From Hylemonella sp. (GTDB taxonomy: Bacteria; Pseudomonadota; Gammaproteobacteria; Burkholderiales; Burkholderiaceae_C), in NCBI GenBank assembly GCA_030695415.1, contig JAUYQZ010000002.1, positions 1-64,000 on the forward strand: a DNA stretch of 64,000 nucleotides, given 5' to 3'. The translations under genes and the position numbers were made by a program. The notes under the pieces were generated by a model. The model searched no databases, had not been told where the DNA came from, and saw only the letters and a program-made list of their open reading frames with translations. Shown one piece after another: positions 28,981-46,415 of the stretch (its first letter is position 1; the number at the start of each line of letters is the position of its first letter).

Positions 28981-29983
28981 GGAGTTCTTCCTTGATGTAA
29001 TCCAGTTTCAGCAACAGTTTCTTGATTTGTTCCACCGACAGCCGGTCCGTGTTGTGCGAGGTGTAGTCGTCCAGATGGGACAGCTTTTCCTCCCCCTCGC
29101 TGAAGTACTGGGCGTAGTTCAAATCCCGGTTGTCGGCCGGGACACGGTAGTAGTCGCCCATGTCTTGCGCCTTGGCCATTTCCTCGCGGGAAATCAGCGA
29201 CTCGTAGAGCTTTTCCCCATGCCGGGTGCCGATGATGCGGACCGGGTTGTCTTTCTTGAAGATCTCCTTGAGCGCCTGGGCCAGGTCGGCCACGGTGGAG
29301 GCTGGTGCTTTCTGCACAAACAGGTCGCCCTGCTTGCCGTGCTTGAAGGCATACAGGACCAGATCCACCGAGTCTTCCAGCGACATCAGGAAGCGCGTCA
29401 TGTTCGGGTCGGTCACCGTCAGCGGCTTGCCGTCCTTGAGCTGCGACACGAACAGCGGAATGACCGAGCCTCGTGACGCCATGACGTTGCCGTAGCGGGT
29501 GGCGCACAGCACGGTTTCGCTTTCGCGCTGGGTGCGGGCTTTGGCCACCATCAGTTTTTCGGCCATCGCCTTGGAGATGCCCATGGCATTGATGGGGTAG
29601 ACCGCCTTGTCGGTGCTCAGCACCACCACCCGCTTGACGTCATTGGCGGTGGCGGCGTTCATGACGTTTTCGGTCCCCAGCACATTGGTGCGCACGGCTT
29701 CCATCGGATAGAACTCGCACGAAGGCACCTGCTTCAAGGCCGCGGCATGGAACACATAGTCCACCCCCTTCATGGCCTGAGAGACGCTATCGTATTCACG
29801 CACATCGCCGATGTAGAACTTCAGCTTGCTGTGGTTGAGCGCAATGCGCATCTCTTCCTGCTTTTTTTCATCGCGGCTGAAGATGCGGATTTCTCGCACG
29901 TCGGTGGCCAAAAAGCGCTTGAGGACGGTATGGCCAAAAGACCCCGTGCCGCCGGTAATCATCAACACCTTGTTATTGAACAT
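28973..29983 (-). CDS. UDP-GlcNAc 4,6-dehydratase/epimerase (FnlA/WbvB/CapE-like)
   Basis: A 336-residue soluble extended SDR. GGTGSFGHTVLKRFL near residue 11 binds NADP, and the catalytic region reads STDKAVYPINAMGISKAMAEK near 124-144, the Met-x3-Lys type of the CapD/FnlA family. It would convert UDP-GlcNAc to 4-keto-6-deoxy sugars of the L series through 5- (and 3-) epimerisation. It overlaps the reductase gene by 11 bp and the C2-epimerase gene by 8 bp, so the three enzymes are produced together. Confidence 0.9.
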   Translation of the reverse strand: MFNNKVLMITGGTGSFGHTVLKRFLATDVREIRIFSRDEKKQEEMRIALNHSKLKFYIGDVREYDSVSQAMKGVDYVFHAAALKQVPSCEFYPMEAVRTNVLGTENVMNAATANDVKRVVVLSTDKAVYPINAMGISKAMAEKLMVAKARTQRESETVLCATRYGNVMASRGSVIPLFVSQLKDGKPLTVTDPNMTRFLMSLEDSVDLVLYAFKHGKQGDLFVQKAPASTVADLAQALKEIFKKDNPVRIIGTRHGEKLYESLISREEMAKAQDMGDYYRVPADNRDLNYAQYFSEGEEKLSHLDDYTSHNTDRLSVEQIKKLLLKLDYIKEELHA

Positions 29984-30869
29984 GCTGTCCTCGTTCTGGT
30001 TGTCCCGTGTTGTGTTGTCTGAAGGCGTGCATCGCCTGAATCAACGCCGGCCAAGCCGCCGGCTTGTAACCCGTCGCCTGGTTAAAGCGGGCCGAGTTGA
30101 GCGAACGATCGATCGAAAATTCATCATCGCGAACGATATCGATCTGCTTGCCATAGGCCTTGGCAATCAGCTTCAGCAGTTCATACTTGCCTATCGGCTC
30201 CGCGCCCACATGGTACAAACCATGCAACTCCGGGCGTGGGATCACCACGTCTCGCACCACGCGCGCGAATTCGGTATTGGGCAGGCCGGAGAAAATGGCC
30301 CGGTTGAACCCCTTGCAGCTCCCCTGTTGCGACAGGAACCACTCCAGCAAACCGTAGGCGCTCTGCAGTTCATGGCCGATGGTCGAGGTCCGCAAGGTGA
30401 TGGCGTGGGGGTAGTCCACTTCGCCCAGATGCTTGGATTTGCCGTACACATCCACCGCATCCGGCGCATCGCCTTCCGCATAGTTGCCTTTGGTTCCGGC
30501 AAAAACGCAGTCGGTACTCACGTGGATCAAGCGGGCCCCGGCCACCGCGCACAGGTCGGCCATGCGGTGCGGCAGCAGCGCATTGAGCGGCAGCGCCAAC
30601 TGCGGATCCTCCGCCTCCTTGTGGTGCTTGGTCAAGCCAATGCAGTTGATCACCACATCCGGGTTCACGCGCGCAAACATCCGCACCAGAGCATCGTGCT
30701 TTTCCACATCAACACCGGCTACCAGCTTGTCTTGTTGGTCGCCCGAGAAAAATCTCTTGGTCTCATCAGCGCGCAATGTGCCCCACACCTGCCACTCGTT
30801 TTTTGCACTGAGCACACGGAACATGGCGCTGCCGATCATGCCGCTTGCGCCGAACACCAAAATCTTCAT
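29973..30869 (-). CDS. RmlD-like 4-keto-sugar reductase (WbvR-like)
   Basis: A 298-residue SDR with FGASGMIGSAMFRVL at the N-terminus, INCIGLTKHHKEAEDP, STDCVFAGTKGNYAEGD and the catalytic YGKSKHLGE near residue 146. It resembles dTDP-4-dehydrorhamnose reductase, but a dedicated RmlD is encoded at 60964. Between the CapE-like and C2-epimerase genes it should reduce the 4-keto-6-deoxy-L-HexNAc. FnlB/CapF proteins are longer, with a C-terminal cupin; this one lacks it and looks more like WbvR of the UDP-L-RhaNAc/UDP-L-QuiNAc route, so L-quinovosamine is favoured over L-fucosamine. That choice is inference. Confidence 0.85.
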   Translation of the reverse strand: MKILVFGASGMIGSAMFRVLSAKNEWQVWGTLRADETKRFFSGDQQDKLVAGVDVEKHDALVRMFARVNPDVVINCIGLTKHHKEAEDPQLALPLNALLPHRMADLCAVAGARLIHVSTDCVFAGTKGNYAEGDAPDAVDVYGKSKHLGEVDYPHAITLRTSTIGHELQSAYGLLEWFLSQQGSCKGFNRAIFSGLPNTEFARVVRDVVIPRPELHGLYHVGAEPIGKYELLKLIAKAYGKQIDIVRDDEFSIDRSLNSARFNQATGYKPAAWPALIQAMHAFRQHNTGQPERGQHVQ

Positions 30870-32104
30870 GCAGTCTCCTCAACCGTCTTGGACATGGCGC
30901 GCAAGTGCGCCATCAACTCATCTACCAGATTGTCATGATCAAAATGCGCCTTGAAGTAGCGCCGCCCATTGGCGCCCAGTTGCGCTCGTTCCTCGGCCGG
31001 CATTTGGTACAACTGCAACACGGCAGCCGCCAGGGCCTGGGCATCCTGCGCCGGCACGCTCAAGCCGGCCTGCGCCTCCGCCACCAGCCGGGCGCCTTCG
31101 CCGTTGAGGCTGGCCAGGATGGGACGGCCCGCCGCCATGTAAGCCTGTACCTTGTTGGGCACCGTCATGGCAAAAATAGGCTCGTCTGCCAAGGTCACCA
31201 ACAAGGCCCCGGCCTTTTGCATCAAACCCGGCATGGTGTTGACCGGAAAGCGCCCCGGCAGATGCAGATTGGTCAGCCCCCGCGCCTGCACCTGCTCGCG
31301 CATCCAATCCCAGCGGCTGCCTTGGCCGAAGACGACGAAACGGATTTGCGGAACATCCTTGAGCAAGACAGCCGCCTCCACCATCACCTCCACCGCTTGG
31401 CCCGCCCCCACATTGCCGGCAAACACCACGGCAAAGCCCTCCTCCAGCGCTGGCACCTCGGGCAGTACAACATCTGGGGAAGGCGGCTCGGCAAACGTGC
31501 CGTCCACTGAGTTGGGGTAATAGGCAATGGGCTTGCCCGGCGCCAGGGCAGCGACGGGCGCCTCGAACGCGCGCGATTGCACCAGCAGCAGATCGGTGTG
31601 GCGGTAGATCCGGCGCACCACCCACTCCACCGCGCGCAGCACCCGGGGGTTGCGCACATAGCCGGTCGCGGAAAGACTTTCGGGCCACAGGTCTTGCACC
31701 CACACGATGAGCTTGCGCCGCTTGATCCAGGCCAGAAAGATGGCCGGGATGGCCAGCAATATGGGAGACAAGCCGTAAACAAACACCACGTCATAGTGGC
31801 GCTTGCGCAGCAGCCAGGGGCCGAAGATCAGGCCCGTGACAATGAACGACAGGTAATTCAACGCAAGACGCAAAGCGCCGCGCGCGCCCCGAGGAAACAG
31901 CGGCACCCGGTAGACTGTGGCGCCAGCCCATGACTCCACCTGGCAACCCCCGGCACGGTAACCATTGAAAACGGCCCCTTCCGGGTAATTGGGCTTACCC
32001 GTGAGCACATCGACTTCAACGCCTTTTTCCACCAATGAGCGCACAACTTCATTGATGCGAAAGCCTTCGGGCCAGAAGTACTGGCTGACTACAAGTACCT
32101 TCAT
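30866..32104 (-). CDS. Glycosyltransferase family 4 (WbuB-like)
   Basis: A 412-residue GT-B enzyme. The N-terminus VSQYFWPEGFRINEV, WVQDLWPESLSATG near residue 150 and the C-terminal donor-site region (VFAGNVGAGQAVEVM, VPNKVQAYMAAGRPILASLNGEG) match WbuB/WbjE-type transferases that add L-FucNAc-like residues. That agrees with the adjacent three-gene L-series aminosugar cassette just downstream. It overlaps its neighbours by 4 bp on each side (ATGA). It acts on the cytoplasmic face of the inner membrane on a lipid-linked acceptor. Confidence 0.9.
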   Translation of the reverse strand: MKVLVVSQYFWPEGFRINEVVRSLVEKGVEVDVLTGKPNYPEGAVFNGYRAGGCQVESWAGATVYRVPLFPRGARGALRLALNYLSFIVTGLIFGPWLLRKRHYDVVFVYGLSPILLAIPAIFLAWIKRRKLIVWVQDLWPESLSATGYVRNPRVLRAVEWVVRRIYRHTDLLLVQSRAFEAPVAALAPGKPIAYYPNSVDGTFAEPPSPDVVLPEVPALEEGFAVVFAGNVGAGQAVEVMVEAAVLLKDVPQIRFVVFGQGSRWDWMREQVQARGLTNLHLPGRFPVNTMPGLMQKAGALLVTLADEPIFAMTVPNKVQAYMAAGRPILASLNGEGARLVAEAQAGLSVPAQDAQALAAAVLQLYQMPAEERAQLGANGRRYFKAHFDHDNLVDELMAHLRAMSKTVEETA

Positions 32105-33420
32105 GCCGCGGCTTGCTCCGTCTTGCCCACGAGCCTGTGAAACAGTTGTTCGAGCTCTTGCGCCTTCACCTGCCTGGACAATGAGTTGATGAACTCATCA
32201 TCAATTTCGGGCTTGAACTCACCTGCCCGCAAGCGCTCCAGGCCACGGAGAATTTCGGCGGTGTCCTCAGACACAACCACACCCAGGCCCGATTGTCTGA
32301 TGTACTGCGCCGCCAGCGAACGCGCGGTAATCTCGGCCACGACTGGTTTTCTGGCGGCCAGATATTCAAAGAGCTTGGTGGTCAGCACACCGCGAGCGCT
32401 GTGCGACGAAAAATCCGAGGTTTCGATGAAGAACAGGGCGTCTGCCGTCAGCATGCCCTGAATCGCACCCATGTAAGGTAGCTGCGGGCAGAAGCGAACA
32501 AAGGGCTCAGCCTGGGGCGCCACTTCAGGCAGCGCGTTGCGCAGCAAAGTGGACTCGCCATAAAACTCGGCCACAACACGCCGCCCGGGCTGTTGATTGA
32601 TTTGGGCCAACGCCTGAAAAAAAGCCACGGGGATTCTGTCCACCGTAATCGTCCCCATGTAGCGGATGACGAATTCATCTGCTGCAGCCTTGGCAGCTTG
32701 ATCGCCGATACGCGCACGGGCCATCTCAAACACACCTTCGTCATAGCCATTTTCGATGCAGGTCACTGCTGGGTGAAACAGCTCGTAGTACTCCTTCATC
32801 GGCCCCGATATCGCGACCACATGGTCTGCGGTCTTGATCAACCAGCGTTCCAGCCCAACTTCAATGGGTCGGGACAAGGCGCTGCCCCGCAAGATGTGGT
32901 TGCCGCTGAACTGGTCACGGTAATCCGCCACCCATCGCCTACCGAATCGGGTCTTGGCCAGCCGGCCAGCCAGATGCGTGGGCCAAGGCGGGCAGGACGA
33001 CATCACGATATCGGCCTCCTTAATTGCCTGTTTGACCTCACCCGCCAGCCACGGAAACGCGAATTGCATGGAAAACAACAGGCGGTGGTCTATCAGTTGG
33101 CCGCCAACCTTCATGAACGAGCGTTTAATTTTCAATAGCAACTGCCCCGCCAGCGACCGGGTCGCCACCGTGCGTTGATTCGCTGCCCTTGTGTTGGCAT
33201 TTGCTTCGGTACTCGCCAGCTTGCCCCAGCCGCCCAACTCCAAAAGAGTCAGGTAGGAAGGCACGTCCTCCGTCAATAAGCCGTCACGCCCGGTTTTGCG
33301 GGTCGTGATCACGGTGATCTGGTGGCCCGTGGCAGCCAGATACTTGGCAAATGCATTAATTCGCCTCGCCCCTGAAGAATTTAGGGGCGGGAAGTAGTGA
33401 ACAAGAAAAACAACTTTCAT
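32101..33420 (-). CDS. Glycosyltransferase (GT4-like)
   Basis: A 439-residue GT-B type protein. The N-terminus MKVVFLVHYFPPLNSSGARR carries the typical glycine/serine loop; ADYRDQFSGNH lies near residue 165 and the C-terminal lobe has GVLTTKLFEYLAARKPVVAEI near 360, equivalent to the donor-binding E-x7-E region. Donor and acceptor cannot be assigned. Its ATG overlaps the wzy stop codon by one base (TAATG) and its stop overlaps the WbuB-like gene start, so it is in the downstream sub-operon wzy-GT-GT-sugar cassette. Confidence 0.87.
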   Translation of the reverse strand: MKVVFLVHYFPPLNSSGARRINAFAKYLAATGHQITVITTRKTGRDGLLTEDVPSYLTLLELGGWGKLASTEANANTRAANQRTVATRSLAGQLLLKIKRSFMKVGGQLIDHRLLFSMQFAFPWLAGEVKQAIKEADIVMSSCPPWPTHLAGRLAKTRFGRRWVADYRDQFSGNHILRGSALSRPIEVGLERWLIKTADHVVAISGPMKEYYELFHPAVTCIENGYDEGVFEMARARIGDQAAKAAADEFVIRYMGTITVDRIPVAFFQALAQINQQPGRRVVAEFYGESTLLRNALPEVAPQAEPFVRFCPQLPYMGAIQGMLTADALFFIETSDFSSHSARGVLTTKLFEYLAARKPVVAEITARSLAAQYIRQSGLGVVVSEDTAEILRGLERLRAGEFKPEIDDEFINSLSRQVKAQELEQLFHRLVGKTEQAAA

Positions 33421-34769
33421 TACCGGCGACCCGACAAATCTTCCGAGACAACAGACGGCCTAAGAACCAATACTAGAAAAATGAAAAACAATAAACCACC
33501 GCCCAAAAGCACACCTAAAAAACCGCCGCCAGATAATTGAAAAAGAAAGAAATAGAGGCAGGCAACTGCTGCGGCGTTCTGTTGCTTCTTAAAAAACGCA
33601 ACGCCAAATCCTATAGCCCCCGATAACAATATTACCCCAATGTAACCAAAATTTATAAAACCATCTACCAAGAAATTTGCATTTGCAGCCGCAGACTGTC
33701 CCGGAGCGAGTCCAAACTGGTAAGCAAAAATATTTCGCTCCATCGGAAATTGCTCAACCCCAGTTAGCTTGCTGACGAGAAGACTCGTGCTACCCATCGC
33801 ATAATTTCGCCCCATCTCCTCATCAAAATACTTAAGCCAATCATAAGCCGTAATATATGGTATCCAAAGCATTCTATTAACCAAATATCCCAACCCAGTT
33901 TTTCCTCTCAGCGGATAGTACTTAAGAACATGCTGCCGCAGCGTCATCATCTCACCCCCTTGACGCAAATTTATTCGCCTGTTGAAATTAACATCACCAA
34001 CAGTGGCATCCCCTGAACTGTAATACACATCAATCGTGCTTACCGATATATTTCCACCGGAAGCGCCATTATCGCTTCCTCTCGCCAATTGGTTCATGCC
34101 AACCAGGTTCACAATTGCAAGCAAAGGCACTATGTACAGCATTCGCTTTGGTACATATCCATTTGCAGCCAGCAAAAACATGGGGAGCAACGCCTTAAGA
34201 ATTAGGGCTTTTTCAAGTGAGAGCGTTAAGCTGAGTGCGAATACCGCAAACAATGGCCACGCCATCTTGCTTTGCCGAATAAAGCAAAGCATAACAACAT
34301 ATGGCATGAATGCAGATGAAAGTATGGATGAGAGATAGAGTAGCGAACGCCCATCACTGCGACTGCGAAACAACATCTCCCTTGCCTGCGCAATTTCAAA
34401 TGATGTCGCCCCCCTTAGCGCCTCCCAAAGTGCGACCTTCTCCGCCGTTACCAACGCGATCAATATCAAAGAAAAATATAAAAAAGAAATAGAACTCACG
34501 CAAAATATAAAGAAGTCGTCGCTTCTTTCCTGCGCAAGAAATTGCTTATTTATTTTTATATATTTATCACCAGCCTTGACCGCCATCCAATACACAACCA
34601 TTCCCAATACAAAAATGGCTAAAAATTCATAGGCTGCTCGACCTCCAAGAAAGGCGATCCCAGCCAATGACTGGAAGCCAAAAAATATGATCATGAGGCA
34701 TGGGAGAAATATCTCAACCCTACCAAATGACGACGCATTTATTCTATTTAAGATAATTCTTATATTCAC
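33420..34769 (-). CDS. wzy: O-antigen/oligosaccharide repeat unit polymerase (Wzy-like)
   Basis: A 449-residue integral membrane protein with about ten to twelve hydrophobic segments and a large polar loop of roughly 110 residues in the second half (around residues 235-345), the shape of Wzy polymerases. Wzy proteins share little sequence, so the call rests on topology and on location among repeat-unit genes. It would join flipped repeat units in the periplasm. The start is a GTG with a good GGTGGGGAT ribosome site upstream. Base composition is far more AT-rich than the flanking sugar genes, as is usual for polymerase genes. Confidence 0.85.
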   Translation of the reverse strand: MNIRIILNRINASSFGRVEIFLPCLMIIFFGFQSLAGIAFLGGRAAYEFLAIFVLGMVVYWMAVKAGDKYIKINKQFLAQERSDDFFIFCVSSISFLYFSLILIALVTAEKVALWEALRGATSFEIAQAREMLFRSRSDGRSLLYLSSILSSAFMPYVVMLCFIRQSKMAWPLFAVFALSLTLSLEKALILKALLPMFLLAANGYVPKRMLYIVPLLAIVNLVGMNQLARGSDNGASGGNISVSTIDVYYSSGDATVGDVNFNRRINLRQGGEMMTLRQHVLKYYPLRGKTGLGYLVNRMLWIPYITAYDWLKYFDEEMGRNYAMGSTSLLVSKLTGVEQFPMERNIFAYQFGLAPGQSAAANANFLVDGFINFGYIGVILLSGAIGFGVAFFKKQQNAAAVACLYFFLFQLSGGGFLGVLLGGGLLFFIFLVLVLRPSVVSEDLSGRR

Positions 34770-34885: not shown

Positions 34886-36904
34886 TCAACTTACGGCCAC
34901 ACTAAATTTTTTGATCCAGATTCCAAAACTAATCATTCGCCAGATACGATAATCGAAGGGCCTTGTTCCGTCGATCATCCCATCGAGTATTTCTAGTGCC
35001 TTTTGATTAATGATTCCACCAGAAATTCCTATTGCATCTTTAAGTGCAACCCTGAATTCAGATGCAGCACCATGCCGCATCCAGTCCTCTTCAGGAGTTA
35101 CAAAGGCCATTTTATCCATTCGCTTGGTGACACGTTCTGGCAGCAAATCACGCATGCCTTCACGCAGAACGCGCTTAGTTACCCCCTCAAGCAACTTGAA
35201 TTCATCAGGCAATCCAAGGGCATACTCAACCAGCCTGTAGTCAAGGAACGGGACTCGAGATTCAATCGAATGCGCCATCGAATCGCGGTCTTCCCAATGC
35301 AACAACATTTGCAGGTTCGACGCTGTGAGTTGTCCGTAAGAGAACTCCCTTATGGAGTCCGTCTTGCCACCGATCATCGCAAAAGGATCAACAGGAACGG
35401 CACCCAGCTTCTCCAGCGAAAGCCAGTCAGGCCTGGCATTCGCCTTGCCGGAATGAGCACGCAATCGCTGTCTCAGCCCTTCGGGCAATAAGATGTTGGC
35501 AATGCGCTTCACGGCGTTGAACTCGGAATATCCGTGCAGTCGCTTCACCGCGCGTATTTCCCGATACAAGCGAATCCATCGCCCACGTTTGAACAAGTTT
35601 GCAAGGTGTGGAGCAAAGAAATTGTGATAACCAGCCAATTGCTCGTCAGCACCCTGCCCATCGAGCATCACCTTGACGCCATTTTCGGACGCCAACTTAA
35701 AGACATGCCATTGCGCATAAATACTGCTTGACGCATAGGGCTCATCTTGATGCCATGTGATTTTTTCTTGTGTGGCAAATAGGTCCTCGAGACGCGGATA
35801 AACGTAATGTGCATCAACCCCGGTTTTATGCACTACTTCGTCGATGTACTCCCGCTCATCGAAACGATCTACATTAGCGCAGGCGGAAAAGGTTTTCTGC
35901 TGTGAATTGGCGTTTTTCTCACGCAACAGCTGGGTCATGATGACGACTATCGAAGATGAATCAAGCCCCCCCGACAGACAGGATCCGACCGGCACGTCGG
36001 AACGTAATCGCAAACGGACCGAATCACGCAGTCGATCACGCAATCCATCCGCCGCTTGGTCAAAGCCACCATCGAACGGCTCGGGCGTCAGTCTGTACCA
36101 AGCGAAGACTGGCAAACGCTTCCCAACCAAAGTCGCGAGGGTTGATATATCTGAAAGTGCGAGTTCGAGCGCCTGCCCACCTCGCAACTGGAAGACCCCA
36201 TCAAATAGCGTCTCATCTGTATGATCAGTGATTGACCAATTCAAAAAATCGTACGCGCGCTGCCCGTTCACGCGGGCCTGCCAGCCAGGCAAAACAGTGA
36301 GCTGTTTGATCTCGGATCCGAATCCGATTCCCTCCTTCGATACCCAATAATATAAAGGCTTAACGCCAAAACGATCGCGCGCGGCAAATAGCTTGTTTTC
36401 TTGTCTGTCATAAATCAGGAATGCAAACATTCCATTGAACCTGGACAGGCAGCTCACCCCCCATTCTTGGTATGCAGCAAGAATTACTTCAGTATCGGAA
36501 TGCGAAACAAAACGGCATCCTAAAGACTCCAGTTCCGCGCGCAATTCAATATGGTTGTAGACCTCGCCATTGAAGACTATCCAATAGCGCTGGTCCGACG
36601 AGCACATGGGTTGATGCCCTGCGGGCGAGACATCCACAATCGCCAGCCGTCGGTGGCCCAAGCCCACTTGGAATGAAGCCTGTTCTTGTTGGGCGACATG
36701 CTCTTTCGGAGCATATGCCAGTTCCGATTGGTACGCGGCCGAGGGGGTGTCCTTCCCGCCCAAAATCTTCATTTCACGACCGTTTGATGTGAACAAGGCG
36801 AAGCCTTCGTCATCCGGGCCCCGGTGACGGATGATTTCCGTCATGGCATGCAATTTGTTAGTCGCTTGCCCGGAGAATGCAATATATCCAGTTATCCCGC
36901 ACAT
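34886..36904 (-). CDS. Asparagine synthase-like glutamine amidotransferase (copy 1)
   Basis: A 672-residue protein with the class II amidotransferase domain (nucleophile Cys2 in MCGITGYI; RHRGPDDEG; FNGEVYNH) and the ATP-pyrophosphatase synthetase domain (LSGGLDSSS near residue 306). Between RGPDDEG and GLGHRRLAIVD it carries about 35 more residues than copy 2. Such genes in polysaccharide loci (WbpS type) are thought to amidate a uronic acid on a nucleotide sugar or lipid-linked sugar, not to make free asparagine. The predicted acceptor here would be the 2,3-diacetamido uronic acid made by the wbp set. It starts 11 bp after the fusion gene. Confidence 0.88.
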   Translation of the reverse strand: MCGITGYIAFSGQATNKLHAMTEIIRHRGPDDEGFALFTSNGREMKILGGKDTPSAAYQSELAYAPKEHVAQQEQASFQVGLGHRRLAIVDVSPAGHQPMCSSDQRYWIVFNGEVYNHIELRAELESLGCRFVSHSDTEVILAAYQEWGVSCLSRFNGMFAFLIYDRQENKLFAARDRFGVKPLYYWVSKEGIGFGSEIKQLTVLPGWQARVNGQRAYDFLNWSITDHTDETLFDGVFQLRGGQALELALSDISTLATLVGKRLPVFAWYRLTPEPFDGGFDQAADGLRDRLRDSVRLRLRSDVPVGSCLSGGLDSSSIVVIMTQLLREKNANSQQKTFSACANVDRFDEREYIDEVVHKTGVDAHYVYPRLEDLFATQEKITWHQDEPYASSSIYAQWHVFKLASENGVKVMLDGQGADEQLAGYHNFFAPHLANLFKRGRWIRLYREIRAVKRLHGYSEFNAVKRIANILLPEGLRQRLRAHSGKANARPDWLSLEKLGAVPVDPFAMIGGKTDSIREFSYGQLTASNLQMLLHWEDRDSMAHSIESRVPFLDYRLVEYALGLPDEFKLLEGVTKRVLREGMRDLLPERVTKRMDKMAFVTPEEDWMRHGAASEFRVALKDAIGISGGIINQKALEILDGMIDGTRPFDYRIWRMISFGIWIKKFSVAVS

Positions 36905-36915
36905 GATTTATTGAG

Positions 36916-39342
36916 CTACATTGGTTTACTTGGACCACACACCTTTAGGGCCATCCAGAAATACAGCCCATATAGTAGCGCCTCGTGGATGGCGTATAAG
37001 AGGAGAAACAGCATGATTGGCAAGCCCGCCCAAGCCGCCAAACCAAGCACCGTGAAGCTCGAGCAGAAATAGATTATCTGCCACAAGGTACCGACCTTGA
37101 CCCGATGCACCACCATGAAGATGGTCGAAATCGGAGAGACCCCGAGTCTTATCCAATAAGCCAGAGCAACCCAGCGCGCATAGTCGCCTGCTTCATGCCA
37201 ACTATCCCCAAACACAAATCCAAACACCGCTGGCGCAAAGGCCGCGAACAAAGCAAACAGCGGCAATGAATACAGCAACAGTTTCTTGCTTGTTGTCCAC
37301 AACAGCGATCGCAAATCACCGCCTTCTCTATAGCATTCTGCAGCCCGTTGATAGAACGTCTGCGCCACTGCAGCTCCAACAAATACCATTGGCACCAGCA
37401 ATAGACGGTGTGTCAGCGAGAATTGCCCTAATATATCCTGTGAATAGAATCGCCCCAATATGAAAATGCAAGAATACATTGAGGCAATGTCCAGCAGAGC
37501 TGCTGGGGCTGAATACATTGGATAATGCAAGTATTGCCTGGCGCGGACCAGGATTTCCTTTTGATTGAATGCTTGAAAATTTACAGTCGTTTTTTTTAAG
37601 AAGTACAAGACCGCGAACCAGAGACCGGCGACATGGCCAATCAGCATGCCGCCCCCTCCCATCTTGGTCACTCCCAGCGCAAGACTGGTTGCCGCATTAC
37701 CCGCATTCTGTATCACTCTCCCACTTGCGATATGGGCATAACTCTTTTGCCAATTTAGACGGTTTGACAGAATTTGCATCATTCCTGTTGCAAAAACAGG
37801 TACGGCAATCCAAAACATCCACGGCCCTAACTCCGGCAGCCCCATGAGATTGGCTATAGGCTGCGCCAATACTACGGACACAATACCCAGCACCAGACTC
37901 GTCGCCAGTGCGAAGGTCAGCGCCAGCATCGTTAATCTATCAGCCTCCAAGCGGTTGGCTGCTTGCATGATGGTCATCTCATACCGCCCTGCAATCACTA
38001 CGCCCAACATCGAGACGATCCCAACATACGCCGTCAATAGCGCAAAGTCAGCGGGCGTATAGATCCGGGTCAGGAGTGGCATCACTGCCATGGAAATACC
38101 TTGCGCAATAGCGGTACCTCCAACCAGGGTCATTATGTGCCGCCGAAAACTTCCAGCACTGACTTTTCCTATTGATGGATCATCGCTTGCGTTCTTCGCT
38201 GGGACTTCTGTTTTGGTCTTTATAGACTCATATTCCAGCTTCATGAAACTTGCTATCCGCAAGGGATCATGCCATCTCTCGACGTAGCGGCGGCTCTCAA
38301 CCCCCTTTTTATATAACTGCTCCACTCCACTGGTCATCCAATATTCCAGAACGTCGGCAATCGTCGCTGTCGTTGCATTGATGATAGGAAGATCATCCCT
38401 CATTTGCTCCGGAATAAATTTAAAGTCCTCCTCGCGGATGTAACAAATAACCGGCTTGCCAAGCGCCATCAATTCAACGGCAAGGCCGCCGTACCAGCCT
38501 GCAAATAGTTGATCTATAAGTAAATCGGCACGTTCGTATTGTTTTTTTGCTTCGGAATTGGACATTCCCTCAACCAATACGAACTCGAAGGCTATGCCCT
38601 TGCGTTTTAGCCGATCTACCGCCTCAAGAATGAATCTTGTTCCCTTGACGCCTTTGTGGCTCGGTGCATGCAACACAACAGGTAGCCTTCTCTCCATTCT
38701 TCTTTCTGGCACCATCGCCCATTTATTCAGATCGATGTGCGAATACTGGAGAAATTGCGCCTTTGGCGGCAGTACGTGCATCAAGTCCGGATTCAATGCG
38801 AATATTTTGTCCGCCAATTTTGCAAATTTGGCAATACGTTTTCGCTTCATTTCATCCGCAATTGGACTGTAATAATCCTCACCCACCTCTGTAGCTGCTG
38901 TTATTTTGAAATTATTTCGACAATAATCACCTTGTCGGGCATCATCCCCCTGATAAGTGACTATTATTTTCTTCCCTAACAACTTCAACAACCGAACGTC
39001 GAGTAGCTCTAATCCATTAGAATATGCATGGATCAAAAACCGAGTTATCAGTGAATAGCCTTTGAGCCGCTTGTCTTTATAGTGAAGCGCGGAAGGCATG
39101 ATCGATTGCCCGAAGTTATAGTGAATAACGTCATACGTGAACGCACGCCAGAAGAGCTTCCACCTTGCTAATTCAAGTCTTAATCTGCCCGCATTTAAAG
39201 GCAGCAGAACTTCATCAGCCTCATAAGCAAAATAGGTCTGCCTGAAAGCGATCGCCTTGCTTTCCAAGCCCAATTCCCTTTCGGATCGGGCAAGTTGCTG
39301 GGCATTTCCGGCAACGATCTCCGGGCAGTGCAACACCCTCAT
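36916..39342 (-). CDS. Glycosyltransferase-Wzx flippase fusion protein
   Basis: One uninterrupted frame of 808 residues. Residues 1-375 form a GT-B glycosyltransferase-like part: VTYQGDDARQGDY near 128, SHKGVKGTRFILEAVDRLKR near 228-247 and GWYGGLAVELMALGKPV near 282-298. A polar linker (about 376-397) leads to a complete MOP-superfamily flippase domain of some 410 residues with 12 or so membrane segments, starting GGTAIAQGISMAVMPLLTRIY. The two activities are normally on separate proteins. The transferase part is related to the separate transferase at 44176-45486, which itself overlaps a separate flippase gene. It would add a sugar and then flip the lipid-linked unit. The ATG overlaps the methyltransferase stop (ATGA). 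Confidence 0.88.
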   Translation of the reverse strand: MRVLHCPEIVAGNAQQLARSERELGLESKAIAFRQTYFAYEADEVLLPLNAGRLRLELARWKLFWRAFTYDVIHYNFGQSIMPSALHYKDKRLKGYSLITRFLIHAYSNGLELLDVRLLKLLGKKIIVTYQGDDARQGDYCRNNFKITAATEVGEDYYSPIADEMKRKRIAKFAKLADKIFALNPDLMHVLPPKAQFLQYSHIDLNKWAMVPERRMERRLPVVLHAPSHKGVKGTRFILEAVDRLKRKGIAFEFVLVEGMSNSEAKKQYERADLLIDQLFAGWYGGLAVELMALGKPVICYIREEDFKFIPEQMRDDLPIINATTATIADVLEYWMTSGVEQLYKKGVESRRYVERWHDPLRIASFMKLEYESIKTKTEVPAKNASDDPSIGKVSAGSFRRHIMTLVGGTAIAQGISMAVMPLLTRIYTPADFALLTAYVGIVSMLGVVIAGRYEMTIMQAANRLEADRLTMLALTFALATSLVLGIVSVVLAQPIANLMGLPELGPWMFWIAVPVFATGMMQILSNRLNWQKSYAHIASGRVIQNAGNAATSLALGVTKMGGGGMLIGHVAGLWFAVLYFLKKTTVNFQAFNQKEILVRARQYLHYPMYSAPAALLDIASMYSCIFILGRFYSQDILGQFSLTHRLLLVPMVFVGAAVAQTFYQRAAECYREGGDLRSLLWTTSKKLLLYSLPLFALFAAFAPAVFGFVFGDSWHEAGDYARWVALAYWIRLGVSPISTIFMVVHRVKVGTLWQIIYFCSSFTVLGLAAWAGLPIMLFLLLYAIHEALLYGLYFWMALKVCGPSKPM

Positions 39343-40220
39343 TCAATGCTTCTCTTTCCCCGGACAGTTATGCCGTAAAAATCGACACATTCCTGCGTGA
39401 TCTTGAGCCCCAATTTATCAAACCAGGCCCGTACTTCTTCAAGAGTATGCCTTGAACAAAGTTGTGGGTGATACCAGTCGTAATTAATCACCACATTATC
39501 ATTTTGATTCAACTCCTCATTCCAATAACACTTCATGAAAAAATGATAAATAAAGCGCTGCAAGTCATATTCGCCCGCCTTGATCTCAAGTAAGTCGACG
39601 CCCGGCACCTTGATCTTTATCTTGGCATCAGCCAACGCTTTCCCCAAAGCAGTTATTTGCTCACAGACCTTATATGCACTTTCGTAAGGCAAACCCCCAA
39701 TCCTGTCGCGAACATAGTCGTCCACAAACTCGCGCATTGGCGCCTTTTGCTTATATACATAAATTGCGATTTCACCGTCATCTGTTAGCTGATTCACCAA
39801 GTTAGCAAATGCTTGCTCAGGATCCGCCGTGTGATGCAAAACCTCTTGACAGTAGATGAAATCGAACAGCCCTAGATCGGTCAAATTTCCTAACAGGTCT
39901 TTTGTCACGAATGCCATATTCTTGGCATCTCCGAGGTTTTTCTGAGCTATATCAGCAGCCACCAAATCAATTCCAATGACCTGCGTCTTTTCCTCGTTCG
40001 AATATTTTCGCAACAAGGCGGTCACTCGACCATTTCCACAACCTGCATCTAGAATTCTTTTTTTAGTGCCAAGATACTCCGCAAGTTGATCCCCATTTTC
40101 GAATCCATTACGATTTAATATCCACTCAAAAACACTTGACCCTTCGTCCAACGTTTGATCAAAGGCCAATTCTGGATTGTTCATCCATTTATTTTTGAAA
40201 CTTCGTTCCGTATTTGTCAC
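39339..40220 (-). CDS. Class I SAM-dependent methyltransferase
   Basis: A 293-residue protein with motif I ILDAGCGNGRVTALL near residue 56, IGIDLVAAD for the ribose-binding acidic residue, and IYCQEVLHHTADPEQAF near 121-137 for motif II/post-II. This resembles methyltransferases that modify sugars or lipid-linked intermediates in O-antigen clusters. The C-terminal half (KVPGVDLLEIKAGEYDLQRF) is specific and not recognised. It sits between the LpxD-like gene (7 bp gap) and the fusion gene (4 bp overlap) in an AT-rich block. Confidence 0.85.
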   Translation of the reverse strand: MTNTERSFKNKWMNNPELAFDQTLDEGSSVFEWILNRNGFENGDQLAEYLGTKKRILDAGCGNGRVTALLRKYSNEEKTQVIGIDLVAADIAQKNLGDAKNMAFVTKDLLGNLTDLGLFDFIYCQEVLHHTADPEQAFANLVNQLTDDGEIAIYVYKQKAPMREFVDDYVRDRIGGLPYESAYKVCEQITALGKALADAKIKIKVPGVDLLEIKAGEYDLQRFIYHFFMKCYWNEELNQNDNVVINYDWYHPQLCSRHTLEEVRAWFDKLGLKITQECVDFYGITVRGKRSIE

Positions 40221-40227
40221 AATAACC

Positions 40228-41106
40228 TCAAATAGTTTTCAATATTTTGGCCGGGTTCCCCGCCACCGTTGCCTCCGATGGCACATTTTTAGTTACCACT
40301 GCACCAATCCCAACGAATGCCTTGTCCATTATTTCAATACTATTAATAATTGACACGTTTGGACCGATCCAACAATCACTACCAATCCGAACACTGCCGC
40401 TGATCTCAGCACACGCTGTTATCAGCGTTCTTGCTCCAACTTTTACATTGTGTGCAATATGAACGTGGTCATCGGTCTTCACATAGTCGCCAATCACCGT
40501 AGGCTCTACTGTCCCTGAAACTATTGTGTTATTTGCACCTATTTCCACATCACTCCCGATCACGACGCCCCCCAAATGAGGCATCGCAATGGGAATTCCA
40601 GCCTCGTCCCGCTCAAATCCAAAACCCTTTGCACCTATGGTCGTATTAGACTTGATATGACAATTTCGACCAATCACGACATTCCTGTAAATGACGACAT
40701 TGTGATCAATTACCGTATTTTCATTAACTGTCACCCCATCCTCTATTACAACGTGATGACCTATTCGCACACCTTTCCCAATATGCGCATTTCCAATTTT
40801 CGCGCTACTTGATATTTCAGCCACATTCTCCGGCACAAAGTATTTTTGAACTATTCTTGCAAAGGCTAGGCGTGGGCTATCAACTTGCACACTGGAAAAC
40901 GGATAGCTTGATATTGCCGAATTATGAATAACCAAGATAGGGGCATTCTCTGCAATTGAAGAGATATGATTTTGATCGAGCTTCCTAGCAAACAAAATCT
41001 TGCCCATTTTCGGATTTTCCAGCGTGCATGCGCCGACCACTTCGAAATCCTTTCCATGCAATGCAACGCCAAGAAAAGACGCTATATCGTTAGCCGTTGG
41101 TGTCAT
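40228..41106 (-). CDS. LpxD-like left-handed beta-helix N-acyltransferase
   Basis: A 292-residue protein. The N-terminal half ([28 protein letters not shown]... start; residues 1-95) matches the LpxD uridine-binding domain, and residues 100-290 form hexapeptide repeats with the catalytic His in [13 protein letters not shown] near residue 215. LpxD adds 3-hydroxyacyl chains to UDP-3-O-acyl-glucosamine in lipid A synthesis and is normally encoded with lpxA and fabZ. This copy, shorter and inside an AT-rich polysaccharide block, probably acylates an amino sugar in the repeat unit. The acyl donor is unknown. Confidence 0.85.
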
Positions 41107-41858
41107 ACATTATCCCGCTCATCAATCTTGATGACTATTTTTCTTGCGCCACCGTAAGCTCCCTCTGTGGCCAAAAATTGCTTTTGTGCCTGCATAAAAT
41201 TTGACACGATGACCTTATCCCAAACAGCGTATGTCGTTTTTTCATCGCCATACACCCACCACATTGGATGAATCAGCAGTTGAATCCTGCTGAAATGTTT
41301 TCGCGCAAACTCTTCAGTAGGATGCATATTGCGCCAACAACGGTTTGAGTCTGATATGTAATGGAATCCCGGAAGATGAGATTTAGAATACGTATTGATC
41401 CGTCTTCCGGTCGATACATTGCCTTGGAGAACAGCGCTTCCTGGCTGGTGAAACGAGACCGCTTCAATTGGCATCCCAAACATTCTTTCAATCATCGCCG
41501 CTTCTGATTCGATCCATTCCTCAGTTGAGTGTCCACTCATTGGATCAAATCCTTGATCATAGTGAAGTCCTATCCAATGCCCTAATGCCAGAATTTCTTG
41601 TACAGCCCGATGATTTCCCCTTGCCATAAGGTTATAAATTGGCGACCGTGTCATAAAAAAATAAGTCGACTTGACTCCAAGAGCGTGCTCAATTTTCGCC
41701 ATTTCTAACGCAGCACAGACATCAGCATCTACATCATGGCGTAACAAACAAATTAGATCAGTACTCGCATCCCGAGCCATTCCAAATGATTTGAATTTGT
41801 AGCCAGATTCAAGCCCCACTTTGAGCATGGTGCCATATGAGTTCAAGGTGAAAGACAT
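41103..41858 (-). CDS. Polysaccharide deacetylase-like (NodB-like) protein
   Basis: A 251-residue protein. [20 protein letters not shown] near residue 37 holds the His-Asp-x-Asp metal-binding motif 1 of NodB-like deacetylases, and [12 protein letters not shown] near 93 is the second metal motif. VSFHQPGSA and LLIHPMWW follow as later conserved strands. It would remove an N- or O-acyl group from a sugar. It is next to, and overlaps by 4 bp, the LpxD-like acyltransferase, so one may deacetylate and the other re-acylate the same amino sugar. The subfamily is common but uncharacterised in surface-glycan loci. Confidence 0.78.
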
Positions 41859-42739: not shown

Positions 42740-44182
42740 TTAGCTCCTCGCGGGAAATAACACCCCTAGCCATCTTTTGTCAATTATTCCGAGCATCCAG
42801 GCGCCGCCAATCACAGCGCCAAGCAACAGCAACTTGCCAATAATCAACACTGTGCTCATCTCGCTTGTATGGATCAAATGAGGGAACAACAGGCCGATGA
42901 TTACCACACAGCCGCTATAGATCAATTTACGGCGCTCCAGCGGCAATGGGTGTAGTTGCTGCGTCCAATACAAAAAGAAACTCGTCAGTAGCGCATAAGA
43001 CACCAAGGTTGCGAAAGCCGAACCCAATGCGCCATAAGTTGGTATCAATGCCACGTTTAATAGAAAATTGACCAACGCTGTAAGCCATGCGCCGTACATC
43101 AACAGTTTGGTTTTCTTCTCCAGCGAAATACCCAGCGCTGTTACCTGAGTCGTTCCGAACAGCACCACGCCCATAGCCACCACCCCCATCGTTGTTGATG
43201 CGGGCCAATATTCTCTTGGCGTGAACAGCATCAAGAATTCATCCGCGAACAGGGCAATGGCACAACCAATGATCGCCAGCAAAAAGAACCAGATCGAGAA
43301 AATTCCACTATAGGTTTGACGGTAATTCTTATCGTCCCGCATCAACTTGATCGCAAACGGACTCCAAGCGAGGCTGAAAGCGCCATTTACAAAAGTCACG
43401 ACGGCCGCAAACTTGAATGCGATGCTGTACAACCCCACCTCCGTCGCATTGCTCAACTCTGCCAGCATCCAACGATCCATGGAGCCGAATATCCAATAGG
43501 CCATCCCAGCGAATACAAAAGGGTACCCGAAGTGAAATATTTTTCGCGCGATCGCTTTGTCGAACTGCCACACCAATTCTCGACGAATAAACCACAAAGC
43601 TACTGGAACCGAAAGCACAGAGGCAATCAAGGCGCCACCGAAAAAACCGTAGAGTCCTTTATCAAGTCCGACTATCAGCCACAGCCCCAGTGCAACCCCC
43701 ATAATGTTCTTCAAGAACGACAGGATCATGAAACGTACTGGAGTGAAATGCAACCTTATCGTGTCTAGCGCGTACTGCAATATCTGGTCTGGAAGTATCG
43801 TGAGCAATGCAAGAACGAGCAGCCCCCATTCGATGCCGTAGCGCTCATCGATCGATGATCGTACGACGTACAACACGACGAGCAAAGCCAGGAGTGCCAC
43901 GAATCCGACCCCAACCAGTTGCCGCAAGCCGGTCGATACCAGCACCGCACGCTGACTCTCTTGGGTTTCCGGATCCCAGTAAAACCGCTGCACAGAGTTG
44001 TTCACACCCACATTTACCAACATACCGACCAATCCCGCCAAGACGCCCAACAAGGCCATCAGCCCATAGTCAGCCACGGAAAAAACGTGGGCATAGATTG
44101 GGAAGACCGCGAAGCCAACTACTTTGAACAAAAAATCAGCGCCGCCATAGATGGCTACATCCTTGCTTAATTTTTTCAGCAT
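42740..44182 (-). CDS. wzx: Oligosaccharide flippase (Wzx-like), separate copy
   Basis: A 480-residue membrane protein of the MOP superfamily with about 14 hydrophobic segments. It opens with the amphipathic LKKLSKDVAIYGGADFLFKVVGF, positions 2-24, typical of Wzx and RfbX proteins, and continues FPIYAHVFSVADYGLMALL. It would move the finished lipid-linked repeat unit to the periplasm. The gene overlaps the upstream glycosyltransferase by 7 bp. It is one of two flippase domains in this locus; the other is fused to a transferase at 36916-39342 and looks like a different subfamily. Confidence 0.9.
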   Translation of the reverse strand: MLKKLSKDVAIYGGADFLFKVVGFAVFPIYAHVFSVADYGLMALLGVLAGLVGMLVNVGVNNSVQRFYWDPETQESQRAVLVSTGLRQLVGVGFVALLALLVVLYVVRSSIDERYGIEWGLLVLALLTILPDQILQYALDTIRLHFTPVRFMILSFLKNIMGVALGLWLIVGLDKGLYGFFGGALIASVLSVPVALWFIRRELVWQFDKAIARKIFHFGYPFVFAGMAYWIFGSMDRWMLAELSNATEVGLYSIAFKFAAVVTFVNGAFSLAWSPFAIKLMRDDKNYRQTYSGIFSIWFFLLAIIGCAIALFADEFLMLFTPREYWPASTTMGVVAMGVVLFGTTQVTALGISLEKKTKLLMYGAWLTALVNFLLNVALIPTYGALGSAFATLVSYALLTSFFLYWTQQLHPLPLERRKLIYSGCVVIIGLLFPHLIHTSEMSTVLIIGKLLLLGAVIGGAWMLGIIDKRWLGVLFPARS

Positions 44183-45486
44183 CGCCGCAGCTGTTCAGGC
44201 GGCAATCTGTTTGCCACCAATGGGTGATCGACGCGCGGCTTCCTTTTGGAAAATTCCGATTTGAGCGGATGAAAAAGATTCATCAAATCTATCTCTTTGC
44301 CATTCAAGATCTTGTCGTACACCGCGCCAAACAAGTACTGCGTCGCCTCGTAAGAATGGTACTTTTCTACATACGCTCGACTCGCCCGTCCCAGCTCGCT
44401 CCTCAACTGAGGACTCCTCACCAGCAACTCCAAATCATCAATGATTGTTTCTGGTGTCGATGAGAAGATAGGACACTCCTGAAGAAAGGAGAATCGTCTA
44501 AAGATGGTCGTGTAACGGTGATCAGACAGATTCGCAATCACCGGGAGCCCGGAAGCCATCGCTTCGACGGCAGACATTCCATAACCGGGCAAAATCAACT
44601 GATCCGCGTGAATATCGGCAGACTGCATCACCTCCATTACTTTACTGTTTTGTACACCTTGCAGCAGCACCAGTTCGACCTTCAGTCCCCTCTGTTGCAA
44701 TACGTTCACCGCATTGAGAATGAATTCACTGCCTTTGACCCCCGTATGGTTCGGGTTGTGCAATATGCGCACTGCATCGCCAGTTCCATCGGCACTAGAA
44801 TAGGATTGCTTCGCCGACCACTTGGTGCTATCAATGGCAAGCATATTCCCCGCAGGGACATCCCACCTTGCGATGCCCTCCAAAGTAAAGCCCACCAAGA
44901 TTACGTCCGCATGCTCGACCCAGTAGTTGACGTGAGCACGAACGTTGCGTTCGTTTTTCGCAGCCTGGGGATAAGAAAGCAAAAGCCCGTTTCTTATACA
45001 TGGGTCAAATATTTGGGAGTACATGTACATGTCACCCCCATATGGAATGATCACCGTCTTGATCTTGGCGAGACGGTATAGGTATGACTCCAGGCGCCAC
45101 AGCAAAGAATTTCTTAAGACACCGCCATAGAATGGCAGATGCAATACGCGCGCATGCTTTGCCAGATAAAGCATCACCAACCAGGGAAGTAGCAGGCGGT
45201 GAAGAATACGCGGCCTTACAAGAGGGAAAATATCATCAAAGTAAAGATCGAAATCCTGCCTCTTATTAATCTTGGAATAAAAACCCGACATCAGCGTCCA
45301 GGAGTGAAAGCCGGCTCCGCGCATTGCATCGGACCAGTACTTGTTGTTGATGATGGGTGTGTGCCCCCAGATCAAGCCATTTTTCTCGCCCAAACGGGAG
45401 ACAATGAATATCAAAAGAACGAAAATTGGGGCCACAAAGATCAGCCCAATATCTCTCATCCAACGATAAACAGTATGTGCAGTCAT
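44176..45486 (-). CDS. Glycosyltransferase with N-terminal membrane anchor (GT4-like)
   Basis: A 436-residue protein. Residues 10-30 form one transmembrane segment (GLIFVAPIFVLLIFIVSRLG), followed by a GT-B-like chain: IPYGGDMYMYSQIF near 155, HNPNHTGVKGSEFILNAVN near 255 and PGYGMSAVEAMASGLPVIAN near 320. The middle and C-terminal parts line up with the transferase half of the fusion protein at 36916-39342 (VKGTRFILEAV versus VKGSEFILNAV). Start: ATG at 45486, overlapping the previous TGA by one base; a GTG one codon earlier is an alternative. It overlaps the flippase gene by 7 bp. Confidence 0.85.
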   Translation of the reverse strand: MTAHTVYRWMRDIGLIFVAPIFVLLIFIVSRLGEKNGLIWGHTPIINNKYWSDAMRGAGFHSWTLMSGFYSKINKRQDFDLYFDDIFPLVRPRILHRLLLPWLVMLYLAKHARVLHLPFYGGVLRNSLLWRLESYLYRLAKIKTVIIPYGGDMYMYSQIFDPCIRNGLLLSYPQAAKNERNVRAHVNYWVEHADVILVGFTLEGIARWDVPAGNMLAIDSTKWSAKQSYSSADGTGDAVRILHNPNHTGVKGSEFILNAVNVLQQRGLKVELVLLQGVQNSKVMEVMQSADIHADQLILPGYGMSAVEAMASGLPVIANLSDHRYTTIFRRFSFLQECPIFSSTPETIIDDLELLVRSPQLRSELGRASRAYVEKYHSYEATQYLFGAVYDKILNGKEIDLMNLFHPLKSEFSKRKPRVDHPLVANRLPPEQLRRC

Positions 45487-46415
45487 CACTCTTCCAAGAC
45501 CGCCAAACCAAAACCATTCTTGCCGAAATTATTGCCGTTGTAGAACATGTATTTTTTGCCTTCATGCCGAACAACGCATGGATAAGCCTGCATCTCGCCA
45601 TCAAATCCGTCCGGCGTGACATCAATTCCTGAATCTTGATCCTTTCGAATCCAGTTCACGCAATCTGCTGACTCCGCATAGCCAATTCTGTATTTGAAGT
45701 GAGGCGCTTTAATATAGGAATACCACATTTTGTATTTCCCAGCCTCTTTGATGACTGCCGATCTGGCAATATTGGATTCATCCGAAGAGGCAAAGTCTAT
45801 TGCGACTTTGCCCTCTCGACGCCAATCGATTCCATCTGATGATTCTGCATATTTGATGTGGTAGAAAGACTTGAGATTGCCATTCGGTGTCTCTTCCCAG
45901 CGCATTCCAGACACGTACGTCATCCGCCAAATTTCACCATCCCTGAAAACATTGGGTGAGGTGACCAAGCAAGGATCAAATTGACTCCGCGCCATGATGG
46001 GCGAAGGCCAGTAGCGGGTAAACGTTTCACCACCATCTTCGCTAATGGCCAATCCTATTGATGCATAAAACAAAGGCTGTCTGTTGCCCTGATTCCAGCC
46101 TATGTAATAGAGATATTTCTTGTTCCCCACCGTAACAATAGATGAGGGATAAACACCATGTTCATCAAAAAAACCTATTGGCCCAGGGGACAAGACAGGC
46201 TTCTGGGAAATTTTCCTTTGAGGCGCCGGATCTTTTATGTCCAGATCAACGAAACCAACATGGGAGTATTGGCGTTTATCGCGGGCAGCAAAATAGACCC
46301 GAAAAATATCTCCGCCGATATGATCTGCAACGGGCAGTTGGCAATGGGATACCACCCAATCTAGACCCTTTGGTGGCTGAAATATCAGGCCGAGCTTTTT
46401 CCATTTCCCTTGCAT
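45486..46415 (-). CDS. Five-bladed beta-propeller glycosidase-fold protein
   Basis: A 309-residue protein without a signal peptide. Repeated blade motifs are visible: FYASIGLAISEDGGETFTRY, IKYAESSDGIDWRREG and IGYAESADCVNWIRKD, each of the form Y-A-x-S-x-D-G-x-x-W, as in GH43/GH32/DUF1861-like propellers. Such cytoplasmic propeller proteins recur in polysaccharide loci and might act as glycosidases, phosphorylases or carbohydrate-binding assembly factors. No catalytic triad could be confirmed. It lies between a methyltransferase and a glycosyltransferase gene on the same transcript. Confidence 0.72.
   Translation of the reverse strand: MQGKWKKLGLIFQPPKGLDWVVSHCQLPVADHIGGDIFRVYFAARDKRQYSHVGFVDLDIKDPAPQRKISQKPVLSPGPIGFFDEHGVYPSSIVTVGNKKYLYYIGWNQGNRQPLFYASIGLAISEDGGETFTRYWPSPIMARSQFDPCLVTSPNVFRDGEIWRMTYVSGMRWEETPNGNLKSFYHIKYAESSDGIDWRREGKVAIDFASSDESNIARSAVIKEAGKYKMWYSYIKAPHFKYRIGYAESADCVNWIRKDQDSGIDVTPDGFDGEMQAYPCVVRHEGKKYMFYNGNNFGKNGFGLAVLEE

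Follow-up and report, generated by a model that had tools for sequence, protein, structure and literature searches.

A glycosyltransferase and a MOP-superfamily flippase joined in one open frame in a glycan cluster of Hylemonella sp.

Glycosyltransferases (GTs) and flippases are normally separate proteins. In the 64,000-nucleotide stretch of Hylemonella sp. contig JAUYQZ010000002.1 analysed here (the window), one gene of a glycan cluster joins the two in a single 808-codon frame that lies at exactly 36916-39342 on the minus strand and translates without internal stops. The gene and its parts are laid out as follows.

36916-39342, minus strand: GT-flippase fusion gene, 808 residues, open frame from ATG to stop
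38215-39342, minus strand: predicted GT4-like glycosyltransferase domain of GT-B fold, residues 1-376 (nine-sequence alignment, profile and fold match)
38167-38214, minus strand: polar linker (residues about 377-392) not covered by the homology of either half
36916-38166, minus strand: predicted MOP-superfamily (Wzx-type) flippase domain, residues about 393-808 (Pfam, alignment and model)

The sequence as given supports the fusion well: it shows one open frame and both domains at full length. An earlier note on this DNA had described an 808-residue frame, free of stops and frameshifts, in which a GT-B glycosyltransferase and a complete MOP flippase are joined by a polar linker; frame, halves and linker all hold, and the boundaries found (about residues 376 and 393) lie close to those it gave (375 and 398). 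A chance open frame is disfavoured, because none of 2,000 base shuffles of the flippase stretch stays open over its 418 codons. The start ATG overlaps the stop of the methyltransferase gene 5' of it by 4 base pairs (bp), and an asparagine-synthase-like (asnB-like) gene begins 11 bp 3' of the fusion gene; the genes around it all run in the same direction, with 10 of 11 junctions overlapping or at most 11 bp apart. The G+C content of the fusion gene is 39-55% in blocks of 50 codons, against 60% in the window. We infer that the frame is made as a single polypeptide in the cell and that both of its domains are active.

The N-terminal half is, by homology and modelling, a GT4-like glycosyltransferase of GT-B fold, for which sugar transfer is predicted. 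Over residues 1-374 or 1-376 it shares 58-64% identity with three full-length stand-alone relatives (378-381 residues), from genome G351 (64%, locus L033), Mariprofundus erugo (60%, L011) and a Mariprofundaceae metagenome-assembled genome (58%, L012), and five further stand-alone relatives share 36-49% identity. The nine aligned sequences have long invariant runs in common, including QGxDxR, HAPS with KG a few residues later, and AGWYGG. The domain check proposed in the earlier note succeeded for the flippase half and failed for the GT half, which was identified instead through its homologues and fold: Glyco_transf_4 scores 16.6 bits over the whole protein and 21.1 bits over residues 1-379 alone (cut-off 28.5), and Glycos_transf_1 scores 12.7 bits (cut-off 26.4). 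A profile of the GT family, searched against the PDB, finds the GT4-type enzyme 7qsg with a whole-sequence E value of 4.3e-4, no single stretch being significant alone, and the weak profile match to GT4 enzymes lies in the C-terminal donor-site region. Structure prediction, also proposed earlier, agrees with both halves, for the flippase with modest confidence. The AlphaFold2 model of the GT half, with a predicted local distance difference test score (pLDDT) of at least 70 in 28 of the first 37 ten-residue blocks, resembles in Foldseek the GT4 enzymes BshA, PimA, MshA and GlgM, so that a GT-B fold is indicated by model comparison; for BshA, PimA and MshA, E is about 1e-10, and the template-modelling (TM) score by target is about 0.55-0.62 for most. 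These three enzymes have no membrane domain, and they differ from the fused GT in the EX7E motif: its second Glu corresponds to E290, invariant in the nine aligned members, and its first Glu is replaced by Gly in all nine, the fused GT included, which leaves the catalytic detail of the GT half uncertain. The family is rare, with full-length members in 4 of the 339 genomes of a phylum sample, the window's included, and only the window's member stands in a frame longer than 442 residues.

The C-terminal half is, judged by sequence and by a model of modest confidence that gives the MOP fold, a complete Wzx-type flippase domain of the MOP superfamily, with transport predicted. Pfam finds Polysacc_synt_3 at residues 423-718 (E 1.7e-23; 83.7 bits, cut-off 23) and Polysacc_synt at residues 402-661 (29.8 bits, cut-off 28.2). 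This half can be aligned to 14 other flippases with internal gaps of at most four residues, and in the resulting 15 rows 20 columns do not vary. Identity to the nearest flippases is about 30%, and in the best matches homology starts at residues 391-401. On a simple hydropathy scale it has 10 strong hydrophobic segments, where the 14 relatives have 6-11 at an equal threshold. The full-length model is good in the GT half and poor in the flippase half (mean pLDDT 56.9); a separate model of the flippase half (mean pLDDT 61) shows 14 helices, some of them short or long, and matches MATE transporters, WzxE (9g9p, TM 0.67) and MurJ (TM 0.56-0.65 in the rows read). The match to WzxE (9G9P) and MurJ extends across the whole flippase half, but these are separate proteins and only about 14% identical to it in sequence. 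The literature describes the structure of WzxE (PMC11706664) and gives the Wzx of P. aeruginosa 12 transmembrane segments (PMC3412221).

At the join, GT homology stops near residue 376 and flippase homology starts near residues 391-401, leaving a polar linker of about 16-20 residues, and the reading frame agrees with the homology on either side of it. No in-frame ATG, GTG or TTG occurs from codon 368 to codon 403. Codon 404 (M404), an in-frame ATG immediately before the first hydrophobic segment, is the sole plausible separate in-frame start for the flippase, and starting there would drop N-terminal residues that the aligned flippases possess. Comparison of Shine-Dalgarno-like pairing did not distinguish the true start from internal starts. 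Out of frame, the linker stretch has no start in frame 2; frame 1 has four up to codon index 407, each of which reaches a stop after 3-13 codons. One frame-1 ATG lies mid-linker at codon index 387, four codons before its stop, and an indel just after it would let the GT continue in frame 2 to codon index 431, an unusual layout with an overlap of about 40 codons with the flippase.

Related clusters and the likely origin of the fusion

The window was compared with six clusters that carry a stand-alone GT of this family (L033 in G351, L011 in M. erugo, L034 in G210, L037 in G026, L012, and L036 in G013). Among these seven clusters, the window's is the only one whose GT carries an attached flippase. 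Three window genes are central to this comparison.

39339-40220, minus strand: methyltransferase gene directly upstream of the fusion; the stand-alone GTs of L033 (75%), L012 (68%) and L034 (59%) have its ortholog in the same position
34886-36904, minus strand: asparagine-synthase-like gene directly downstream of the fusion; the stand-alone GTs of L033 (60%), L011 (57%) and L034 (51%) are followed directly by a counterpart, those of L037 and L012 by a less similar one (about 36%)
42740-44182, minus strand: second, separate, complete flippase, 480 residues; ortholog in L033 (60%), L012 and L036 (44%) and L037 (35%)

In five of the six related clusters the stand-alone GT is directly followed by an asnB-like gene, with gaps of 1 bp (L033), 3 bp (L011 and L034), 22 bp (L037) and 136 bp (L012). 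In L036 the asnB-like gene lies 3.2 kb from the GT, and no open reading frame (ORF) with at least six hydrophobic segments was seen between them. G351 has the order flippase, epimerase, methyltransferase, GT, asnB, at 60-75% identity to the window proteins. The M. erugo protein (NZ_VBRY01000001, L011:6001-7146, 381 residues) is 60% identical over residues 1-374 and likewise has its asnB-like gene 3 bp downstream, but it terminates at a stop and carries no flippase. Because these relatives have the GT and then asnB directly, where the window has a flippase in between, the fusion looks recent and lineage-specific. The simplest history is that a flippase gene was inserted behind the GT and the intervening stop and start were lost; no donor was found among the flippases compared.

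In each of the clusters L011, L012, L036 and L037 only one flippase-like ORF was seen, separate from the GT, and that of L011 is 26% identical to the window's separate flippase. Between the fused and the separate flippase of the window there are short, weak matches only. Because the cluster keeps a second complete flippase whose orthologs are found in its relatives, the fused one is an addition and not the cluster's sole predicted exporter.

Next to the related asnB gene of G351, an 815-residue protein with 21 hydrophobic segments in frame is encoded downstream (L033:13286-15730, plus strand). It was considered as a flippase-polymerase fusion and rejected, the flippase-half profile giving a probability of 3.4% and no Pfam family reaching its cut-off.

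Flippase-enzyme fusions in other genomes

The rarity of the arrangement, supposed in the earlier note, is borne out by surveys of overlapping genome samples, the two larger of which scored at most two candidates per genome: a fusion of the window's layout occurs in 0 of 59, 0 of 398 and 0 of 368 other genomes. Among 72,556 plasmid records, 17 match one half and none covers 80% of the fusion. When contigs were scanned for short peptide patterns, the two loci returned were stand-alone GTs. No description of a GT-flippase fusion was found in the open-access full-text literature (PubMed Central, PMC), a search that left aside subscription papers and domain databases, and to that extent the earlier statement that no protein of this kind had been described stands; as regards genomes it has to be narrowed, since other flippase-enzyme fusions were found there. 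The fusion is made of known parts, and two other flippase-enzyme fusions were met, so that joining a flippase to an enzyme is not unique to the window.

The first of these came from a flippase-profile survey of 339 genomes (E 1e-20), in which 19 had a match, the window's included, and just one fusion besides the window's turned up. In genome G987 (L088:1792-4305, minus strand), an 838-residue frame combines a MOP flippase with a TupA-like ATP-grasp domain, both above their Pfam cut-offs (E 7e-11 and 4.2e-31). It resembles the window's protein in joining a MOP flippase in frame with a cytoplasmic glycan-assembly enzyme, but the flippase is N-terminal and the partner is not a GT. Plasmids were the sole dedicated search made for this fusion, and no plasmid record covers 80% of it.

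The second is more tentative. In genome G530 (L056:12822-15110, plus strand), a 763-residue frame contains a MOP flippase from the subfamily of the window's fused one (30% identity), followed by about 350 residues that may be GT4-like; the order is thus the reverse of the window's. A chance frame is unlikely there because the genome has 30% G+C. The GT label comes from a profile match over 71 columns (E 1.1e-4, probability 56%), and it gains nothing from the Pfam scan, which gives no GT family and only two matches below their cut-offs, CoA_trans (17.3 bits against 23, E 0.0032) and TPR_AP5Z1 (E 0.12). NCBIfam gives no match, a search of the PDB finds a single weak one (8pjy, E 0.002), and no relative of the C-terminal part was seen in 55 other genomes or in plasmids. 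The G530 locus also has a second flippase of the same subfamily at L056:3946-5196.

Other long frames were rejected as fusions. In G299 (806 residues), G068 (793), G390 (651), G734 (660) and G232 (612) a flippase, and in G247 (604) a stand-alone GT, is preceded in frame by a stretch unlike protein, as judged from composition and by eye, without a domain scan. A Polysacc_synt_3 survey of 398 genomes gave at least 11 frames of 638 residues or more, of which ten were inspected and that of G1048 was left out; six of the ten have an upstream part that, by the same judgement, is unlike protein, and the other four run upstream into stretches of N. A frame of G631 listed at 971 residues shows, on translation, stops between frames of 481 and 460 residues.

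Proposed coupling of assembly to export and its alternatives

The N-terminus of MOP flippases is cytoplasmic, which would place the GT at the transporter's cytoplasmic mouth, where the lipid-linked glycan is built. We tentatively favour, at somewhat less than an even chance, a bifunctional inner-membrane protein in which a lipid-linked glycan is extended and then handed to the protein's own flippase. In such a protein, the N-terminal GT-B domain would add a sugar to an undecaprenyl-diphosphate-linked oligosaccharide at the cytoplasmic face, the flexible linker of about 16-20 residues would keep the GT beside the mouth of the flippase domain, and the latter would move the extended glycan to the periplasm. 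The tether would raise the local concentration of product at the transporter, so that export of glycans bearing the GT's sugar would be favoured, and the separate flippase would stay, probably handling the same or the unextended unit. Such coupling of building to export is plausible, and it is supported by the occurrence of other flippase-enzyme fusions (G987 and, tentatively, G530).

The question bears on published systems. Substrate selection by MOP flippases is described as unclear in work on pneumococcal flippase specificity (PMC8561386), and TacF is presented as a MOP gatekeeper flippase that can monitor the state of its substrate (PMC13385700). The closest comparison is the terminal galactosyltransferase PssJ of Rhizobium leguminosarum and the Wzx protein PssL: contact of this last GT with the flippase system is proposed as possible, but the two are separate proteins, PssJ has a GT-A fold, the authors call the two-hybrid result with flippase and polymerase ambiguous without excluding contact, and direct hand-over of the unit from the last GT to the flippase is left undecided (PMC7589315). 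The interaction networks of PssG and PssI (PMC9961541), a Wzy review (PMC12004945), sphingan clusters (PMC5399355), cyanobacterial export proteins (PMC4594306) and Myxococcus pathways (PMC7310880) form the wider background.

Several observations weigh against a coupled, bifunctional protein. In Rhizobium, the same paper reports, loss of the terminal galactose did not stop later steps (PMC7589315), so coupling is not a general need. The fusion is known from one genome and has no relatives from which selection could be gauged; the presence of a second complete flippase means that the fused one may be dispensable; no Pfam family rises above its cut-off over the GT half, and the whole GT family has Gly for the first EX7E Glu. 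Finally, the fused flippase keeps 38 (73%) of the 52 columns on which at least 12 of the 14 relatives agree; leave-one-out values for the relatives range from 46/64 to 52/52, two being about as low as the fused flippase (44/60 and 46/64) and 12 higher. The separate flippase, which the earlier note had missed, also means that the fusion does not simply explain flippase specificity, as had been suggested.

Given a second flippase in the cluster and a layout known from a single genome, two alternatives are serious rivals. Neutral gene fusion, in which both domains work independently and the tether has no function, is the stronger of them, though on balance unlikely. Bacterial glycan clusters often recombine, the surveys returned no second case of the layout, and four related clusters showed a single flippase-like ORF, apart from the GT; on the other hand, the frame stays open across a linker that is not conserved, and comparable flippase-enzyme fusions exist elsewhere. 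That the flippase half mostly tethers a soluble GT to the membrane, with flipping left to the protein encoded at 42740-44182, seems improbable. The complete separate flippase with orthologs in four related clusters and the deviation of the fused one at 14 of 52 conserved columns speak for such an anchor, but the flippase half is full length and carries the 20 columns invariant in all 15 rows, and the stand-alone GT relatives do without any anchor of this kind. Least probable is that a sequencing or assembly error (a missed GT stop or a linker indel), or internal initiation at codon 404, hides two proteins: there is one assembly, with an estimated genome contamination of 7.81%, and both M404 ahead of the first hydrophobic segment and the linker ATG at codon index 387, where an error could join two genes, offer openings, but the neighbouring epimerase, methyltransferase, separate flippase and asnB genes are intact against G351, the other out-of-frame starts, all in frame 1, soon meet stops, an error behind the linker ATG implies the long GT overlap, and M404 removes residues that aligned flippases have.

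Returning to a coupled protein, a natural link between one assembly enzyme and one flippase makes the question of how flippases select their substrates testable, and it would offer a natural template for a two-domain assembly-export protein. A broader proposal, which we regard as doubtful, is that joining MOP flippases to cytoplasmic enzymes of glycan assembly is a recurrent device of at least three independent origins (the window, G987 and, tentatively, G530), the fused enzyme marking the step that licenses export; were it true, such fusions would show which step of assembly each cluster couples to flipping.

Remaining genes of the cluster

The cluster may be of the Wzx/Wzy-dependent type, with an initiating transferase (Bac_transf), at least four GTs including the fused one, two flippases, and a Wzy that is a candidate without a profile match.

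44176-45489, minus strand: glycosyltransferase of GT4 type, distantly paralogous to the fused GT (37% across about 150 residues)
32101-33420, minus strand: GT4-type glycosyltransferase (domain scan)
30866-32104, minus strand: WcaI-like glycosyltransferase (domain scan)
27283-27843, minus strand: initiating sugar-phosphate transferase (Bac_transf, PF02397)
33420-34769, minus strand: candidate Wzy polymerase with eight hydrophobic segments, proposed from place and hydropathy only, with no Pfam or NCBIfam match

The suggestion that the fused GT is the last glycosyltransferase of the pathway finds no support, as at least three other GT4-type genes accompany it and the initiating transferase, and sequence does not tell in which order they act. 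Adjoining the WcaI-like GT gene, three sugar-nucleotide genes at 27859-30869 (minus strand) encode a UDP-GlcNAc 2-epimerase-like protein, a Polysacc_synt_2 protein with Polysacc_syn_2C, and an RmlD-like protein; we take them to be of the kind that makes UDP-N-acetyl-L-fucosamine (UDP-L-FucNAc), and the glycan unit may contain L-FucNAc. The GT gene at 44176-45489 is overlapped by 4 bp by a gene (45486-46415, minus strand) whose 309-residue product matches the N-terminal domain of glycosyl hydrolase family 32 weakly, though above the cut-off. The gene directly downstream of the fusion is one of two asparagine-synthase-like genes in the cluster (34886-36904 and 48794-50677, both minus strand), the second of which is 77% identical to one in G351. 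Upstream of the methyltransferase gene lies an LpxD-like hexapeptide acyltransferase (40228-41106, minus strand), scoring 202.4 bits with NF002060, just below the cut-off of 207, with weak partial matches in related loci. Beyond it, a 251-residue protein (41103-41858, minus strand) has no Pfam or NCBIfam match and a 32% identical relative in a related cluster (L033:2652-3446).

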